Below are positions 16,083 to 24,086 of a stretch of DNA of 40,615 nucleotides, piece by piece. The translations under genes were made by a program, and so were the position numbers. Within the stretch, counting starts at the first letter, position 1; each line of letters opens with the position of its first letter. The notes under the pieces were generated by a model. The model saw nothing but the letters and a program-made list of their open reading frames with translations. It was not told the origin of the DNA and made no database searches. The stretch comes from Ignavibacterium sp. (GTDB taxonomy: Bacteria; Zixibacteria; MSB-5A5; GN15; PGXB01), in the NCBI GenBank assembly GCA_020724775.1, contig DYGG01000031.1:1-40615 (forward strand). The letters run 5' to 3'.

Positions 16083-16479
16083 TTTTATTCCTGCGGAAAC
16101 TACAAATATATCGCTTTTATCCATCAATGTCAAAACCTCACCCTACCGGGCAATCTCGGGAGATCACTCACGGGAGCAGAAATGCTATATACCTGACGGC
16201 GTTCTTGGCAGCGGGTAATTTTTACCCACCGGTGCGATTGTCCCCATAGAAATATCCAATTTCGACAGAAGCAGTCTAATATCCTCTTTCGTTCTCGCTC
16301 TCCCTCGGACGGGTCCTGGAAGCGCCGCCCTGCTATATGTTAGAGTGATTCTATAGTGGAATCCCCGTTCTATTATTGATTGTTCTGATTGCAGAGTACC
16401 CTCTTTATTTTTTCGGCACAGCAATTGCCATTACAGAAGTAGAGAGACCTGTCAGCAACGCAAAATATGGGAGAGACTG
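16083..16479 (+). other. Intergenic region between glycosyltransferase and four-Cys protein
   Basis: This divergent region of about 400 bases holds no convincing gene. It contains a 15-base perfect palindrome (GGGTAA-TTT-TTACCC, 16213-16227) that could be an operator, and a sigma-54-like element near its right end, listed separately. A 79-codon minus-strand frame at 16185-16424 has no recognisable features. Confidence 0.5.
16414..16429 (+). promoter_or_regulatory. Candidate sigma-54 (-24/-12) promoter
   Basis: CGGCACA-GCAA-TTGCC has the invariant GG (16415-16416) and GC (16427-16428) at the exact 10-base spacing of sigma-54 promoters, and matches the consensus TGGCACG-N4-TTGCW at most positions. 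The predicted start would be near 16440, 40 bases before the four-Cys gene. The element is partly palindromic (GCAATTGC), so a weaker match exists on the other strand. Confidence 0.4.
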
Positions 16480-16800
16480 ATGCCTAAACGGATTACCGAA
16501 AGAACTATCAATGACCGGGAAGTCGCGGCGCCGCCCTCAGTAGAGCCGGTCAGCCTATGTGCCACCTGCGACTCCGTAGAAACCTGTGTATTTTTCAAAG
16601 AGCACAAGGGCGCCATTCAGTACTGTGAGGAGTATCTTGCCGTTCAGAATACTCCAGCGACTAAGATTGAGACAGTACCTGAGACCGGGCGGTCTTTGGA
16701 AACTGACGCCAAAGGGCTTTGTGTCAACTGCCAGAAACTGCCCACCTGCGTTTTCACCCGTCCGGCTGAAGGAGTCTGGCACTGCGAAGAGTACGCCTGA
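16480..16800 (+). CDS. Small protein with two copies of a C-x2-C-x5-C-x(11-12)-C-E motif
   Basis: A 106-residue soluble protein whose only eight cysteines fall in two tandem motifs: C27, C30, C36, C49 and C81, C84, C90, C102. Each motif ends CEEY and is preceded by a hydrophobic residue. A third copy of this motif opens the NuoE-like protein encoded downstream (C11, C14, C20, C33). The four-Cys sets suggest binding of zinc or an iron-sulfur cluster. The segment between the motifs is acidic and probably flexible. The start follows GGGAGAG at good spacing. I do not know a named family. A metal chaperone, redox carrier or adaptor for the downstream complex would fit, but none is shown. Confidence 0.75.
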   Translation: MPKRITERTINDREVAAPPSVEPVSLCATCDSVETCVFFKEHKGAIQYCEEYLAVQNTPATKIETVPETGRSLETDAKGLCVNCQKLPTCVFTRPAEGVWHCEEYA

Positions 16801-17169
16801 GGCGTGAACGCTGAGCGGATGCTTGAGCGTTTGAAGATACTTATCCCTCGGTTGCTGGCGGCAAATTAATCCCCATTTGACCGAAAAGATGTGTGGACTC
16901 GCCAGGCTTTCCTCAGGTGAAATTCTACTCGCCGGGTAATATTTCCTCACTTAATAACAAAAATCACAAACTCCTATCATAATTCTACACTTTTTTGTCG
17001 TCTCTGGTAGACTATTTCAAGTTTTTTATCAGCAACAGGTTACAGGTGACAAAATCTTGGTTATTATCCCCTTGCGGTACTGCTCTGATTTGCTTAAGAT
17101 GGCATATATGTTATGGTACACTAATTGCTCTATTTTTGAGAAAATGCCTATAGTTATGTACAAATGACG

Positions 17170-17182
17170 CTCCAAGTTGGAG
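17170..17182 (+). promoter_or_regulatory. Palindrome CTCCAA-G-TTGGAG upstream of the nuoE-like gene
   Basis: A perfect 13-base dyad. If the promoter with -10 at 17159-17164 is used, the dyad covers the transcription start, an ideal place for a repressor. It could also be chance. Confidence 0.3.
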
Positions 17183-17218
17183 ATTTTCGCAGGTGGGGAG
17201 GCTGGGGGCTTCGACATT

Positions 17219-17245
17219 GTTCTTGAAATCTGTCCTGTCAAGAAC
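17219..17245 (+). promoter_or_regulatory. 8-bp inverted repeat in the redox operon leader
   Basis: GTTCTTGA (17219-17226) and TCAAGAAC (17238-17245) are exact reverse complements around an 11-base loop. It may be an operator half-site pair or an mRNA hairpin. It does not match the usual Rex site. Confidence 0.35.
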
Positions 17246-17359
17246 CTTATACCTGCCAGACTCGCCTCAATTCCCAGCGTCGCTTCGGAGGAGATTTTTT
17301 TCTGACTGCAAATACTTCCTGATACAACCCGGGAGGATGACTTTGAGGAGGAATGATTG

Positions 17360-18298
17360 ATGAATTCAAACAGTTCTGTTACAGATCTCTGCTCGACCTG
17401 TAACTACTTCGCCACCTGTGTCTACCGGCAGGAACGCGAGGGACCTATTCAGTTCTGCGAGATGTTTGTCGAGGTAGTGGAAAAGCATAAAGAGGGGTAT
17501 GGGGGGCTTATTGCTATTCTTGAAGAGATTCAATCGAAGTACGGCTATCTGCCCCAGGCGGCGTTGAGAACGGTAGCCGAGAAAACCGGTCGTTCATTAG
17601 TAGATATTTACGGCGTGGCGACTTTCTACCGTCTTTTCAGCCTCGAGCCGCGCGGCAAGCATCTCGTCTCCGTTTGCAAAGGGACGGCCTGTCATGTGCG
17701 AGGCGGACCGACCATCGCCGAGGAATTCGAAACTCAACTTGGAATCGGCGCGGGCCAAACCACTTCTGACCGGAAATTTACTCTGACCACTGTCAACTGT
17801 CTTGGCGCTTGTGCCCTTGGTCCGGTCGTCGTTGTCGACGGCCATTATTACTCCAATGTGAAAAAATCCGAGGTCAAAGGAATTATCAGCCGCAGCGATG
17901 TCGAAGAAGAGCGATATGTCATTCCGGCTGACGAGCAGACCTTCCCTCTGGAAGTCAGTTGCCCGCGCTGCAATCACAGTCTGATGGATAAGGAGCATCT
18001 TCTGGATAATGCCCCGGCAATCCGGGTCACTATCTCCTTTGACGGTCATCACGGATGGCTCCGTCTTTCCTCGCTTTACGGGAGTTATAATATTGAGTCC
18101 GAGTACAAACTGCCGCACGACCGGATAGTCAATTTCTTCTGTCCGCATTGTCATGCCGAACTGGTCGGCGGCTCCAAATGCCCCGAATGCAGCGCCGCCA
18201 TGGTACCGATGATTGTTCGCGGCGGCGGCATCATTCAGATCTGCTCCCGGCGCGGATGCCGCGGACATATGCTCGACCTCAACGGAGTAAACGTCTAA
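17360..18298 (+). CDS. NuoE-like [2Fe-2S] subunit with Cys-rich extensions
   Basis: The centre (about residues 45-190) is a NuoE/HydC-type thioredoxin-like [2Fe-2S] subunit: ILEEIQSKYGYLPQAAL and the GVATFYRLFSLEPRGKH segment, then CKGTACHVRGG and CLGACALGPVVVVDGHYY supplying the four cluster cysteines. At 312 residues it is about twice the usual size. The N-terminus carries the four-Cys motif of the upstream small protein (C11, C14, C20, C33). The C-terminus (about 205-310) has CPRC, CPHC, CPEC and a final CSRRGC, like paired zinc ribbons. ATG 17360 follows GAGGAGG; a TTG three bases earlier is unlikely. It should pass electrons to or from the NuoF-like subunit encoded next. The function of the extensions is unknown. 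Confidence 0.88.
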   Translation: MNSNSSVTDLCSTCNYFATCVYRQEREGPIQFCEMFVEVVEKHKEGYGGLIAILEEIQSKYGYLPQAALRTVAEKTGRSLVDIYGVATFYRLFSLEPRGKHLVSVCKGTACHVRGGPTIAEEFETQLGIGAGQTTSDRKFTLTTVNCLGACALGPVVVVDGHYYSNVKKSEVKGIISRSDVEEERYVIPADEQTFPLEVSCPRCNHSLMDKEHLLDNAPAIRVTISFDGHHGWLRLSSLYGSYNIESEYKLPHDRIVNFFCPHCHAELVGGSKCPECSAAMVPMIVRGGGIIQICSRRGCRGHMLDLNGVNV

Positions 18299-18349: not shown

Positions 18350-21300
18350 ATGGAAAAATTGAAGTCAATCGAAGAATTCAGCGCGTTGCAGGGCCGTCTG
18401 GCGGCTGACCGTGATGACGCCATTCCGACCGTCGTAATCTCGGCCGGGACCTGCGGCCAGGCCAGCGGCGCCAACGACCTTATTCGTATAGCCAAACGGG
18501 AGATTTTGGCGCATAACCTGACCGATCGCGTTCACCTGCGGGTGACCGGATGTCACGGCTATTGCGAAATTGAGCCGTCGGTACTGATCGAGCCCTCCCG
18601 TACTATCTATCCCAAAGTAACCGAGAACGACATGGTGCGGATAATTGCTGCCGTCGCTCATGGCGAAGTAATTCAAGACCTGCTTACCCAGGATCGCTTC
18701 AGCGGTAAGCGACTGGAGAAAATGGAAGAACTCCCATTCTACCGCAAGCAGGTTCGCACTATCCTCTCTCGCAATGAAAAAATCGACCCAATTCGAATCT
18801 ACAATTATATCGAAAGCGGCGGTTATGCCGCTCTGGCGAAGGTTCTTCAGAAAGGGGAACCGGGCTGGGTCATTGATGAAGTCAAGGTATCCAAAATCCG
18901 TGGGCGTGGCGGCGCCGGTTTCCCCACCGGAATCAAGTGGGAAATGCTCGCCAAACAGCCCGGCAAACGCGGCAAATATTTGGTATGTAATGCCGATGAA
19001 GGCGATCCCGGCGCCTATATGGACCGCAGTGTTCTTGAAGGAAACCCACACAGCATTATTGAAGGGATGATTATCGGCGCCTTTGGTACCGGCGCGACCA
19101 AAGGAGTCATTTATGTGCGTCACGAATATCCGCTGGCTATCAAGCATCTGGTGATTGCTTTGCATCAGGCGCGTGACCTGGGGTTCCTCGGGGAAAATAT
19201 TCTTGGCACAAAATTCAATTTCGAGATAAATATCGTCCGCGGGGCCGGGGCGTTTGTCTGTGGTGAGGAGACCGCTCTTATCGCTTCCATTGAAGGGAAA
19301 ATGGGCGAGCCGCGTCAACGTCCCCCATACCCGGTGCAGAAAGGGATTAACGGCTGCCCCACCGTTATAAACAACGTCGAGACCTGGGCGAATATTCCCG
19401 TCATCATCAATGAAGGCGCTGCCGGCTTTACCCGGACCGGAACTGCCAGCAGTTCCGGCACCAAAATTTTCAGCCTGGTCGGCAAAGTGAGGAATACCGG
19501 GCTGGTGGAAGTCCCCATGGGCGCCTCCATCAACTCTATTGTCAACGAGATTGGCGGCGGTCCGGTCGGCAACAACAAAATCAAAGCGGTGCAGACCGGC
19601 GGTCCCTCCGGAGGATGCATTCCGGCAAGCATGTTTGACCTTCCTATCGATTTCGATTCCCTTGCCAAAGCCGGTTCCATCATGGGCTCCGGCGGCATGA
19701 TTGTTATGGATGACCGCACCTGCATGGTCGATGTCGCCAAATATTTCATGAACTTCCTCAAAGATGAGTCCTGCGGCAAATGTTTTACCTGTCGCAAAGG
19801 AACCCAGCGGATGTATGAAATTCTGGATGATATCTCGAAAGGGAACGGCACTCTCGAAAAACTGCAACTACTGGAAGAACTGGCTCTGGTCGTGAAAGAT
19901 ACCACCATGTGCGGCCTGGGTCAGTCTGCCGCCAATCCGGTGCTTTCAACCATCCGTTACTTCCGCAGTGAATACATGGAGCACATTATACACAAGCGCT
20001 GTCCCGCCGGAGTCTGCAAGGAGTTGGTGGGGGCGCCGTGTCAGTCCAGTTGTCCGCTGGGCACGGAAGCCTGGCGCTATGTGGCACATATCGCCCGCGG
20101 TGAGTACGAGCAGGCCTACCACGTGATACGGGAAGCCAATCCCTTCCCCTCGGTCTGCGCTCGTGTCTGCAACCATCCCTGTGAGGAGCATTGCCGCGCC
20201 GGAGCCAGCGGCGGACAGTCGGTTGCTATCCGCGCTCTCAAACGGTTTGTCACAGACCGCATCGACCCCGCTTCTTACAAACCACTTAGATTGGCGGAAG
20301 CCGATGACGTAAGCCCCAAAGTGGCGATTGTCGGCGCCGGTCCGGCCGGACTTACGGCCGCACACTACCTCTCCCTGAACGGTTATCGCGTGACCGTCTT
20401 TGATTCCGAGAAAAAGCCGGGAGGGATGATGTTCACCGCCATCCCGCCTTATCGCCTGCCCCGGGAGGTCATCGAAAAAGAGATAGAATCACTTATTGAC
20501 GAAAAAGTCGAACTGAAATTGAACTCCAGTCTTGGAAAGGATTTCAGTATCGACAGTCTTTTCGCCGATGGATATAAATCAGTCTTCCTTGCCCTTGGCG
20601 CTCATAAGAGCAAGCGGCTTGAAATTGAGGGAGAAGATGTGCAGGGGGTATATCCCTCAATGCAGTTCCTCCGCGGATTCAATGTCCAGGGAAAGAAACT
20701 TGCCCGCGGCAAGGTCGGCGTAATAGGCGGCGGCAACTCCGCAATTGATGCCGCTCGGGTGGCTATTCGGCAGGAAGATGTAGAAAGCGTCACCGTCTTC
20801 TACCGTCGCACCCAGAATGAGATGCCGGCCTTCGAGGAGGAGATAGAAGCCGCCTTGCAGGAAGGAATCGCCCTCGAGACTCTGGTAACGCCGCTGCGCG
20901 TTCTTTCTACCAGTGGCCATTTGACCGGCATCCAGTGCCTGCGCAACAGCCTCGGAGAACCTGATTCCAGCGGACGTCAGCGACCGGTCCCAATACCCGG
21001 AAGCGAATTTGTCGCCGCGCTTGACACACTCATCGTCGCTATCAGCGAAGGCTCTGACATCGATTGCATCTCCGTGGCAAGTTCGATGAAGATTGACACC
21101 GATGAAAAGAGCAGTACTGTTAGAGTCGATACGGAAACTCTTGGCACCAATCGCCCCGGCGTCTTTGCCGGCGGCGATCTGACGACCGGACCTAACACTA
21201 TTGTCGATGCCATCGCAGCCGGCAAAAGAGCGGCAATTATGATTGACCGCTATATCCGCGGCGAAGCGCTTAAACAGCCGGGTCAGGTCCGCCTGCCGCA

Positions 21301-21526
21301 AATCTATGTCGAGCCGGCGCCGGCGTGCGACCAGCCGCTGGAAGCGGGAACAAGAGTCGATACTCCGCGTGCCGCCGTGCAGTGGCGCAAACGGGGGTTC
21401 GCCGAGGTCGAAATGTCCCTGACTGTCAAAGAAGCGACCCGCGAAGCCTGCCGCTGCCTGCGCTGCGACCTCGAATTTACCAAACCTCCGACCCCGGAGA
21501 AAAAACAGATTCAAGTAGGAGGTTGA
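18350..21526 (+). CDS. NuoF-GltD fusion: NADH/FMN and NADPH/FAD oxidoreductase
   Basis: A 1058-residue fusion. Residues about 25-110 are a thioredoxin-like [2Fe-2S] domain (GTCGQASG, GCHGYCEIEP). Residues about 145-545 are NuoF: GRGGAG (185-190) and CNADEGDPGAYMDRS for NADH and FMN, RGAGAFVCGEETALIASIEG, an SLBB region, and the [4Fe-4S] ligands C475, C478, C481 and C521. Then comes a GltD/NfnB-like module: a double-cluster domain (C551, C556, C564, C568; C603, C607, C611, C615), FAD-binding GAGPAG (662-667) and a second Rossmann motif GGGNSA (793-798) with YRRT after it, as in NADPH-binding GltD. The tail ends RCLRCD. One chain therefore joins both nicotinamide pools. HydB-type proteins instead end in a ferredoxin domain. 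Cytoplasmic; core of the proposed complex. Confidence 0.92.
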   Translation: MEKLKSIEEFSALQGRLAADRDDAIPTVVISAGTCGQASGANDLIRIAKREILAHNLTDRVHLRVTGCHGYCEIEPSVLIEPSRTIYPKVTENDMVRIIAAVAHGEVIQDLLTQDRFSGKRLEKMEELPFYRKQVRTILSRNEKIDPIRIYNYIESGGYAALAKVLQKGEPGWVIDEVKVSKIRGRGGAGFPTGIKWEMLAKQPGKRGKYLVCNADEGDPGAYMDRSVLEGNPHSIIEGMIIGAFGTGATKGVIYVRHEYPLAIKHLVIALHQARDLGFLGENILGTKFNFEINIVRGAGAFVCGEETALIASIEGKMGEPRQRPPYPVQKGINGCPTVINNVETWANIPVIINEGAAGFTRTGTASSSGTKIFSLVGKVRNTGLVEVPMGASINSIVNEIGGGPVGNNKIKAVQTGGPSGGCIPASMFDLPIDFDSLAKAGSIMGSGGMIVMDDRTCMVDVAKYFMNFLKDESCGKCFTCRKGTQRMYEILDDISKGNGTLEKLQLLEELALVVKDTTMCGLGQSAANPVLSTIRYFRSEYMEHIIHKRCPAGVCKELVGAPCQSSCPLGTEAWRYVAHIARGEYEQAYHVIREANPFPSVCARVCNHPCEEHCRAGASGGQSVAIRALKRFVTDRIDPASYKPLRLAEADDVSPKVAIVGAGPAGLTAAHYLSLNGYRVTVFDSEKKPGGMMFTAIPPYRLPREVIEKEIESLIDEKVELKLNSSLGKDFSIDSLFADGYKSVFLALGAHKSKRLEIEGEDVQGVYPSMQFLRGFNVQGKKLARGKVGVIGGGNSAIDAARVAIRQEDVESVTVFYRRTQNEMPAFEEEIEAALQEGIALETLVTPLRVLSTSGHLTGIQCLRNSLGEPDSSGRQRPVPIPGSEFVAALDTLIVAISEGSDIDCISVASSMKIDTDEKSSTVRVDTETLGTNRPGVFAGGDLTTGPNTIVDAIAAGKRAAIMIDRYIRGEALKQPGQVRLPQIYVEPAPACDQPLEAGTRVDTPRAAVQWRKRGFAEVEMSLTVKEATREACRCLRCDLEFTKPPTPEKKQIQVGG

Positions 21527-21531
21527 GATAT

Positions 21532-22209
21532 ATGGTAACACTTACTATAAATGGCGTTGAAGTTACTGTTGAAGACGGCACCACCGTCCTGGAGGCGGCC
21601 CGCTTTCTCGGGTTTCCGATTCCGACCCTATGCCACATGGAGGGACTCTCCCCTTACGGCGCCTGCCGTCTATGCGTTGTCGAAATCGGACAGGAACCGA
21701 AATCACGTCTGGTCACATCCTGCACTTATCGCGCCGAAGAAGGGTTGATTGTCAGAACCGCGTCATCACAGGTGATGAAAGCACGCATGATGATTCTGGA
21801 ACTGCTTCTGGCTTCCTGTCCTCAGTCGAAAGTGATACAGGATTTAGCCTCCAAATTCCAGGTTCGCCAGCAGCGATTCCGCCAGGAACATGAAGATTGC
21901 ATTCTTTGCGGCTTATGCGTCCGGATGTGCGAAGAGCAGATGATGGCAAAAGCGATTGGTTTTCGCGGGCGGGGTGAGAAACGGAGTATCGGAACGCCCT
22001 TCGATATCCGCTCCGAGCAGTGCCGGTTGTGCGGCGGATGTATGTATGTCTGTCCGGCGTGCCAGTTGCGTTGCACCTATGCCGAGCCCGATAAGGCTAT
22101 CTGCGGCGGATGCGCCAATATCCATCCCCCCTGCTATATTAAAGAGCAATTTGATGATATGATGTGTTATATGGACCCCTGTGTCGCCTGTGAAATAATC
22201 AAGAAATAA
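21532..22209 (+). CDS. NuoG-like iron-sulfur subunit without catalytic domain
   Basis: A 225-residue protein. Residues 1-75 are a plant-type [2Fe-2S] domain with C34, C45, C48 and C64. A bacterial-ferredoxin-like double-cluster region follows (C123, C126, C129, C133; C164, C167, C170, C174). The C-terminal 50 residues add C177, C181, C191, C194, C201, C212, C217 and C220, enough for further metal sites. The His-Cys3 cluster found between these parts in NuoG and HndD is not seen, and there is no molybdopterin or H-cluster domain. It thus looks like a pure electron wire. ATG 21532 follows GTAGGAGG and lies five bases after the previous stop; longer in-frame starts lie inside the preceding gene. 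Confidence 0.88.
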   Translation: MVTLTINGVEVTVEDGTTVLEAARFLGFPIPTLCHMEGLSPYGACRLCVVEIGQEPKSRLVTSCTYRAEEGLIVRTASSQVMKARMMILELLLASCPQSKVIQDLASKFQVRQQRFRQEHEDCILCGLCVRMCEEQMMAKAIGFRGRGEKRSIGTPFDIRSEQCRLCGGCMYVCPACQLRCTYAEPDKAICGGCANIHPPCYIKEQFDDMMCYMDPCVACEIIKK

Positions 22210-22238: not shown

Positions 22239-23822
22239 ATGACTTACTCGAGAGTAAATGCCACGGCGGCGACCCTGACTAAAAACAGAACCGAGCACTC
22301 GGTCGTGCCCGTTTCCGGAATGTGTGTCACCTGCGTCGACGGGTGCGTCGGCATGTGCGAAATCGGCAAATCAGCCTATCGCGGACATGAAGTTATCTAT
22401 CCGCAGCCATTCGGTGTCATTACCACCGCCGGTGAGAAAATCTATCCGGTCGATTACTCCCATTTCAATATCAGCGGCACCGCCGTCGGGGCTCACGGTA
22501 TTGAAGCGGATAGCGATAAAGCGATATTCCCCAATGTCAATCTTGAAGTCCATTTCGGTCACGACAAGGGCATCAAATTTCGTCTCCCCTGGATAATCCC
22601 CGGTATCGGCTCTACTGATATCGCCAAGAACAACTGGGAAGGATTGGCAATCGGTTCGGCTCTTGCCGGGACCGGCTTGACCATCGGCGAAAATGTGGTT
22701 GGTATGGATATGGAATCGGTCATACAGAATGGCCGGGTGGTCGATACCTCCGACCTCAAACGGCGGGTTAGTCTTTACAAGGACCATATGCGGGACGGCT
22801 ACGGGGCGATTATTGTTCAGGCAAACATTGAAGATACCCGTCTCGGCGTTCAGGAATATGCCATTCAGAAACTCGGTGTGCAGGTAGTGGAGTTAAAATG
22901 GGGACAGGGCGCCAAGAACATCGGCGGCGAGGTCAAAATCCGCAACCTGAAAAAAGCCCAGATTCTATATGAGAGAGGGTATGTCGTTCTCCCCAATCCG
23001 ACCGACCCGACCGTAATCAAAGCCTTTGAGCGAGGCGCCTTCAAAGAATTTGAAAGACATTCTCGTGTCGGTATGGTAACCGAGGAGTCTTTCGCCACCC
23101 GGGCTCAGGAACTTCGCGACGCCGGCGCTAAATATGTTTTCCTGAAGACCGGTGCTTATCGCCCGGCCGACCTGGCGCGAGCAATCGCTTTTGCCTCCAA
23201 GTACAAAATCGACCTGCTGACCGTTGACGGCGCCGGAGGCGGTACCGGTATGAGCCCTTGGCGGATGATGAATGAATGGGGCGTGCCGCCGGTGGAACTT
23301 CATTCCATGCTCTACTTCTACGCTAAAAAACTCGCCGATAAGGGAAAGCATGTTCCGGCGCTCGCTGTCGCCGGCGGTTTTACTTTTGAAGACCAGATAT
23401 TCAAGGGACTGGCTCTTGGGGCTCCCTTTGTCAGACTGGTCGGCATGGCGCGTGGACCGATTGCGGCGGCTATGGTTGGCAAGACCATCGGTAGAACTAT
23501 CGATGAGAACCAGTTGCCGGTCTATGTCGAACGGTTCGGTAACAGTATAGACGAGATTTTCGTCACTGCTCATGACCTGCGCAAGGAACTGGGGGATGCC
23601 GCCTTCGAGAAAATCCCCACCGGCGCCCTTGGCTTGTACACCTATTACGAGCGTCTGGCGCAGGGACTTCGTCAGTTAATGGCAGGAACACGCAAATTTG
23701 CTATGAATCATATCTCCCGTGACGATATCTGGGCTCTCACCAAAGAGGCCTCGGAAATCAGCGGCATCCAATATGTGATGGACGTGGACAAGGCGGAAGT
23801 GGAGAAGATACTCAATTTCTAA
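22239..23822 (+). CDS. Stand-alone glutamate synthase-type FMN-binding protein
   Basis: A 527-residue protein with the FMN-binding TIM barrel of the glutamate synthase large subunit: ELKWGQGAKNIGGEVKIRN, LLTVDGAGGGTGMSPWRM, and AVAGGFTFEDQIFKGLALGA, the phosphate-binding end of the barrel. The glutaminase domain and the GXGXG C-terminal domain of GltB are absent. The cysteines for the GltB 3Fe-4S cluster are also absent: the only four Cys are C29, C32, C36 and C40 in a new N-terminal C-x2-C-x3-C-x3-C motif. A conventional glutamate synthase role is therefore unlikely. It follows AGGAGGAAC at 22226 and is last in the operon, before a terminator, so it is probably a subunit or direct partner of the upstream NADH/NADPH module. 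Confidence 0.85.
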   Translation: MTYSRVNATAATLTKNRTEHSVVPVSGMCVTCVDGCVGMCEIGKSAYRGHEVIYPQPFGVITTAGEKIYPVDYSHFNISGTAVGAHGIEADSDKAIFPNVNLEVHFGHDKGIKFRLPWIIPGIGSTDIAKNNWEGLAIGSALAGTGLTIGENVVGMDMESVIQNGRVVDTSDLKRRVSLYKDHMRDGYGAIIVQANIEDTRLGVQEYAIQKLGVQVVELKWGQGAKNIGGEVKIRNLKKAQILYERGYVVLPNPTDPTVIKAFERGAFKEFERHSRVGMVTEESFATRAQELRDAGAKYVFLKTGAYRPADLARAIAFASKYKIDLLTVDGAGGGTGMSPWRMMNEWGVPPVELHSMLYFYAKKLADKGKHVPALAVAGGFTFEDQIFKGLALGAPFVRLVGMARGPIAAAMVGKTIGRTIDENQLPVYVERFGNSIDEIFVTAHDLRKELGDAAFEKIPTGALGLYTYYERLAQGLRQLMAGTRKFAMNHISRDDIWALTKEASEISGIQYVMDVDKAEVEKILNF

Positions 23823-23876: not shown

Positions 23877-23906
23877 GTCATTATTGAGTCGGTGGGGAAA
23901 TAAAGA

Positions 23907-23979
23907 TAGCGGTACGGGGAATCGAACCCCGGTTTGATGGCTGAGAACCACCCGTCCTAGGCCACTAGACGATACCGCC
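23907..23979 (-). tRNA. tRNA-Glu (anticodon CTC)
   Basis: The minus strand folds as a full cloverleaf. The 7-base-pair acceptor stem is GGCGGTA with TACCGCT, ending in a G-U pair. The D-arm has the Glu-typical TCGTCTAGTGGCCTAGGAC. The anticodon stem GGTGG/CCATC encloses loop TTCTCAG, giving anticodon CTC, which reads GAG. The T-arm is CCGGGGTTCGATTCCCCG. The discriminator base is A. CCA is not encoded, so it must be added after transcription. Confidence 0.96.
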
Positions 23980-24086
23980 AGAAAACCAACGAGCGGCTAA
24001 TATAATACCAATCATCATTTTGTCAAGTCCGCTTGTTTTAATCCCCAATAGAGACTATATTTCCCCGAAATCTGACAGGAGGTGCC

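Follow-up and report, generated by a model that had tools for sequence, protein, structure and literature searches.

Results

A small protein with two Cys4 modules precedes a NuoE-like subunit that carries a third

The window (the whole stretch of DNA analysed, 40,615 nt) contains a forward-strand locus whose first gene encodes a 106-aa protein, here called M2 (16480..16800, ORF translation). All eight Cys residues of M2 fall inside two Cys4 modules: module 1, C27-x2-C30-x5-C36-x12-C49-E50 (16558..16629), and module 2, C81-x2-C84-x5-C90-x11-C102-E103 (16720..16788). A further module, C11-x2-C14-x5-C20-x12-C33-E34 (17390..17461, counted from the ATG at 17360), is fused to the N terminus of the NuoE-like protein encoded downstream. 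The Cys positions in the translations confirm an earlier note, which described the motif twice in the small protein and once at the start of the NuoE-like protein. That note also listed finer resemblances between the three copies. The x2 and x5 spacings are common to all, as are V-F or V-Y after the third Cys and the C-E-x-[YF] end (CEEY, CEEY and CEMF), but the last spacing is x12 in module 1 and the NuoE copy, and x11 in module 2. Similarly, Thr precedes the third Cys in all three copies but is not a feature of the family, where it occurs in 36%. The six frames of the window hold three matches to the motif, and 0 of 100 order-1 Markov windows held any; the expectation per shuffled window proteome is 0.0005, and the probability of at least one match in a shuffled 8-Cys protein is 0.0003.

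Profile searches, in genomes that are mostly MAGs, found relatives of M2 in the window's phylum (at least 48/132 genomes), in the phylum to which a Phycisphaerales MAG (L004) belongs (at least 15/294 genomes), and in at least 10 further genomes from other families. The eight Cys show no variation among 50 non-redundant relatives, and the linker between the modules is variable. The spacing is x12 in 50/54 first modules and x11 in 52/54 second modules. In the family alignment, module 1 conforms to GLCxTC...C-x12-CE[EM]F and module 2 to KGLCxNC..R..C..PKP..GVWHCEEY; hence, the two modules are distinct types, each with its own spacing. Two loci outside the window's phylum (L168 and L172) have three to five module copies, as tandem genes or in one long protein.

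M2 and the module, including the 50 members, matched no Pfam or NCBIfam family over the cut-off; PADLOC likewise gave no match, and a PDB search with the module protein returned nothing credible. Specifically, there was no match to the ferredoxin families Fer2 and Fer4 in the 50 members and no radical-SAM domain in M2, in which the fourth Cys lies at x11-12. Viral contigs and plasmids yielded no relatives of M2, and no account of the Cys4 module emerged from literature searches. AlphaFold models were of low confidence and gave no usable fold, both for M2 with one relative (pLDDT 43) and for five aligned module copies (pLDDT 47). The best explanation of these data is that the module is a portable Cys4 unit of ~30 residues, and that M2 consists of two such units on a flexible linker.

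The enzyme operon combines NADH, FAD and glutamate-synthase domains

The NuoE-like subunit (17360..18298, 312 aa) belongs to the NuoE/HydC thioredoxin-like [2Fe-2S] family, as judged from a PF01257 match (E=2.6e-47, residues 38-178) and the cluster Cys at 106, 111, 147 and 151; its nearest PDB chains are HydC and related proteins. Its C terminus is zinc-ribbon-like (PF13453, E=1.8e-5, residues 273-308). This region (17960-18298) contains eight conserved Cys, matches the zinc ribbon only in part, and is an extension that marks this type of operon. Domain matches identify the next two genes, also on the forward strand, as a 1058-aa fusion of NuoF (NADH/FMN/4Fe-4S) to a GltD-like FAD/NAD(P) domain (18350..21526) and a ferredoxin subunit resembling HoxU and the HydA N terminus (21526..22209). 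The last encodes a 527-aa glutamate-synthase synthase domain without a glutaminase domain (22239..23822, forward strand; PF01645, E=4.1e-14), here called GltS. The GltS protein starts with a Cys cluster of its own (MCVTCVDGCVGMCEIG), and a tRNA-Glu gene lies directly after the gene on the reverse strand (23905-23980).

The operon therefore joins NADH/FMN (NuoEF), FAD/NAD(P) (GltD), ferredoxin-like clusters (HoxU) and a glutamate-synthase domain. As in GOGAT, PF01645 and GltD-type domains are encoded in one operon; unlike GOGAT, there is no detectable glutaminase (GATase_2, PF00310), in cis or in trans, in the window's genome, which is 95.7% complete. Hence, the complex may differ from ordinary glutamate synthases, which depend on glutamine; electrons for the synthase could come from the NADH/NuoEF module. 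The nearest characterised enzymes are Stn (the Sporomusa-type Nfn) and the Nfn/Bfu bifurcating enzymes (PMC7483475, PMC9304861), which likewise combine NuoE-like, NuoF/HydB-like, GltD/NfnB-like FAD and NuoG/HydA-N-like ferredoxin domains. However, GltD is fused to the NuoG-like domain in Stn, whereas in the window it is fused to NuoF and the ferredoxin subunit is separate; the window operon also adds a glutamate-synthase subunit, and its NuoE carries a Cys4 module. The likeness is drawn from subunit domains, and bifurcation by the window complex is putative.

The Cys4 module is absent from the complex-I NuoE (contig C40) and the HydC-type NuoE (contig C81) of the same genome. A motif match beside HydC on contig C81 was rejected as a module, being an ordinary ferredoxin-type protein.

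Module genes have σ54 promoter-like sites and upstream dyads

Two palindrome-promoter pairs are found in the window, all on the forward strand, one for M2 and one for the NuoE operon. A σ54 (-24/-12) promoter-like site for M2, CGGCACAGCAATTGCC (16414..16429, score 0.89), lies 66 nt upstream of the ATG at 16480, and 202 bp upstream of this site is a palindrome, CGGGTAATTTTTACCCA (16212..16228), that is a probable enhancer of an NtrC-type regulator. A second such site, TGGTACACTAATTGCT (17114..17129, score 0.95), is located 243 nt upstream of the NuoE ORF, with a second palindrome and probable enhancer, CGGGTAATATTTCCTCA (16933..16949), a further 181 bp upstream.

Sites of this kind (score ≥0.85) are present upstream of 62% of 56 module genes, compared with 3% of 269 other ORFs; in shuffled sequences the share is 2%. 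A de novo dyad search upstream of module-gene promoters returned CGGGGA-N5-TCCCCG, the core of which occurs in 19/52 regions (shuffle maximum, 2). At ≤1 mismatch, the dyad is found in 34/81 module-gene upstream regions and 16/429 controls, the former being the same set as was used for discovery; the median distance from dyad to -24 element is 187 bp. Both dyads in the window are variants (CGGGTA...) that are individually weak; that at 16212..16228 has 3 mismatches to the main consensus.

The regulator linked to module genes has the receiver, AAA+ domain with GAFTGA, and Fis HTH of an NtrC-type σ54 activator, and RpoN is present in the window's genome. From the sequence enrichment, the regulator would probably bind the dyads and activate the promoters. 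In the window's genome, the kinase and regulator are encoded on another contig (C27), in front of a paralogue of M2, so we infer that the window genes are regulated in trans. No good σ54 site was found upstream of this paralogue. The paralogue locus (L062, 1425-1754 and 3343-5103) adjoins a gene for an NDH-2-like oxidoreductase.

Gene order and co-occurrence link the module to glutamate enzymes and a two-component system

We collected 66 loci, related to one another, by the module alone, from the window's phylum, Planctomycetota and other families. One or more standard neighbours are present in 64 of them, in a single order: histidine kinase, NtrC-type σ54 regulator, module(s), [glutamate dehydrogenase], [module(s)], NuoE, NuoF/GltD, HoxU, GltS, where brackets mark genes that may be missing. 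The kinase or regulator is found in 49 loci, NuoE/NuoF/GltS genes in 47, and glutamate dehydrogenase in 18. Of the two loci without standard neighbours, L130 is a short contig and L127 has a weak, divergent member of the family. Some module loci adjoin glutamate dehydrogenase without NuoE, and four (L062, L063, L070 and L092) consist of kinase, regulator and module without the enzymes nearby.

A profile search for co-occurrence, as proposed in the earlier note, found the module associated with NuoE over 132 genomes (43/5/14/70 with both, module only, NuoE only and neither; odds ratio 43, Fisher P=5e-17, relatedness ignored). For the kinase/σ54-regulator pair in the same genomes, the counts are 44/4/9/75 (odds ratio 92, P=2e-21, relatedness again ignored). 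Thus, the module tracks the kinase/regulator pair slightly more closely than it tracks NuoE. The module is missing from 14/57 NuoE-bearing and 9/53 kinase-bearing genomes; hence, neither NuoE nor the kinase requires it. Most module-less NuoE operons with full flanks have no adjacent kinase or regulator; L179 is a clear exception, with kinase and regulator directly before NuoE and no module.

The module is fused to two different enzymes

Most NuoE proteins in these operons are ~283 aa long and lack the module. N-terminal fusions occur in the window's family and in two further genomes (G110 and G523), and a C-terminal fusion of a type-2 module occurs in G066 only. Module-fused NuoEs are scattered in the NuoE tree, in which many branches are weak. 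Whether module and NuoE are fused in G256 (L131) is doubtful, given an ATG between the two. In G066 (L088, 9900-10320), a degraded and incomplete second copy of the NuoE end comes after the NuoE end and module; this C-terminal fusion may have arisen by recombination.

Type-2 modules are also fused to the N terminus of glutamate dehydrogenase, in G482 and G526, where the module runs into the conserved start of the enzyme without an intervening Met. A search of the phylum of G482 returned G482 alone, the one genome of that phylum covered; hence, the dehydrogenase fusions are in two different phyla. Glutamate dehydrogenase has no electron-transfer cofactor and needs no cluster. Fusion to two unrelated, functionally linked enzymes is the best evidence that the module acts with both. 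Since both are operon enzymes and the fusions are in separate lineages, the module appears to belong to the pathway, with a role in docking or sensing, and not to have arisen by chance, and a NuoE-specific electron or cluster role is not favoured.

Discussion

What is the function of the Cys4 module? We propose, with a probability of about 0.5, that it is a metal-binding docking and/or redox-sensing part of a σ54-controlled glutamate regulon. The kinase and NtrC-type regulator (a GAF-type kinase, where linked) would act via the dyad enhancer on the σ54 promoter, behind which M2 would usually be the first gene. There is probably one metal centre per module; our first guess is a [4Fe-4S] cluster, with Zn2+ as the alternative. 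SPASM/Twitch sites offer an analogy, limited to the first three ligands: in AhbD, a SPASM enzyme, CX2CX5CX20-38C ligates a [4Fe-4S] cluster (PMC10452713). The shared feature is CX2CX5C followed by a fourth Cys; here, however, the fourth Cys is 11-12 rather than 20-38 residues away, and the module stands alone or as an N- or C-terminal tag. M2 would most likely dock with, and/or sense redox for, the NuoE-NuoF/GltD-HoxU-GltS complex and glutamate dehydrogenase, with the kinase perhaps another partner, and where either NuoE or the dehydrogenase has a fused module, this would tether that enzyme to the same partner.

The earlier note had suggested a functional link between M2 and the neighbouring redox subunit through cluster delivery, docking or electron transfer. 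A functional link between the module and the redox complex is strongly supported by gene order, repeated fusion and co-occurrence, and docking between the module and a partner is possible. Mechanisms centred on NuoE fare less well, given the slightly closer tracking of the kinase, the loci and fusions with glutamate dehydrogenase, and the NuoE-bearing genomes that lack the module.

The second-ranked reading, which we consider doubtful, is that the module is an electron carrier. Each copy would bind a [4Fe-4S] or [2Fe-2S] cluster, M2 would be a two-cluster, ferredoxin-like donor or acceptor for NuoE-NuoF/GltD-HoxU, and the NuoE-fused copy would be an extra entry or exit cluster. This is consistent with four Cys per module and eight in total, with the position of the NuoE copy next to a [2Fe-2S] subunit, with the SPASM precedent, and with the relationship of the complex to bifurcating Stn/Nfn enzymes. 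It fits poorly with a module that is fused to or neighbours an enzyme without an electron-transfer cofactor, and with the lack of any ferredoxin family match. Furthermore, most NuoE copies do without the module, as does the operon in 14/57 genomes, which makes obligatory electron transfer less likely.

Third, and in our judgement unlikely, the module could be purely a regulator: a Zn or redox switch acting on the linked histidine kinase or regulator, with the fused enzymes reporting their own state. The slightly closer tracking of the kinase, the scarcity of neighbouring kinases and regulators at module-less NuoE operons, and the four loci with kinase, regulator and module but no enzymes nearby all agree with such a role. 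Nonetheless, the module is usually co-transcribed with the enzymes from the target promoter and not with the kinase, and in L179 the kinase and regulator stand directly before NuoE with the module absent.

It is very improbable that M2 delivers or assembles iron-sulfur clusters for NuoE, as might be supposed of a small Cys-rich protein beside Fe-S subunits. The module is fused to glutamate dehydrogenase, neither the complex-I nor the HydC NuoE locus of the window's genome carries it, and many NuoE operons of the same type lack it. Lastly, the motif is short, but a chance or trivial match has a negligible probability, being already refuted by an expectation near zero and by conservation in several groups with fixed gene order.

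If the module does dock or sense, it would represent a new link between redox state and nitrogen metabolism in phyla that have received little study. We tentatively suggest a broader role, for which the odds are low: the module may be a metal-centre signalling or docking tag of a new class, through which a dedicated σ54 two-component system responds to the redox or iron-sulfur state of the enzymes that handle glutamate. Such a tag would also unite glutamate dehydrogenase with an NADH-linked glutamate-synthase-like complex, and gene fusion would have moved it from enzyme to enzyme in different phyla. M2 represents a previously undescribed small protein family that now has a concrete context and candidate partners. 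Our analysis predicts a complete regulon, comprising enhancer, σ54 promoter, regulator and targets, and it suggests that an NADH/NuoEF module is coupled to an unusual glutamate-synthase-like complex, for which no glutaminase could be detected.

The predicted regulon resembles NtrB/NtrC in its kinase, its receiver-AAA+-Fis regulator with GAFTGA, its -24/-12 promoters with upstream dyads, and its glutamate-gene targets. It differs in that the kinase has a GAF-like input and the first target gene encodes a Cys4-module protein. The GAF-like input region of the linked kinases is soluble and conserved, and includes near-invariant Cys (C56 and C228 of the alignment) that are a possible sensing site.
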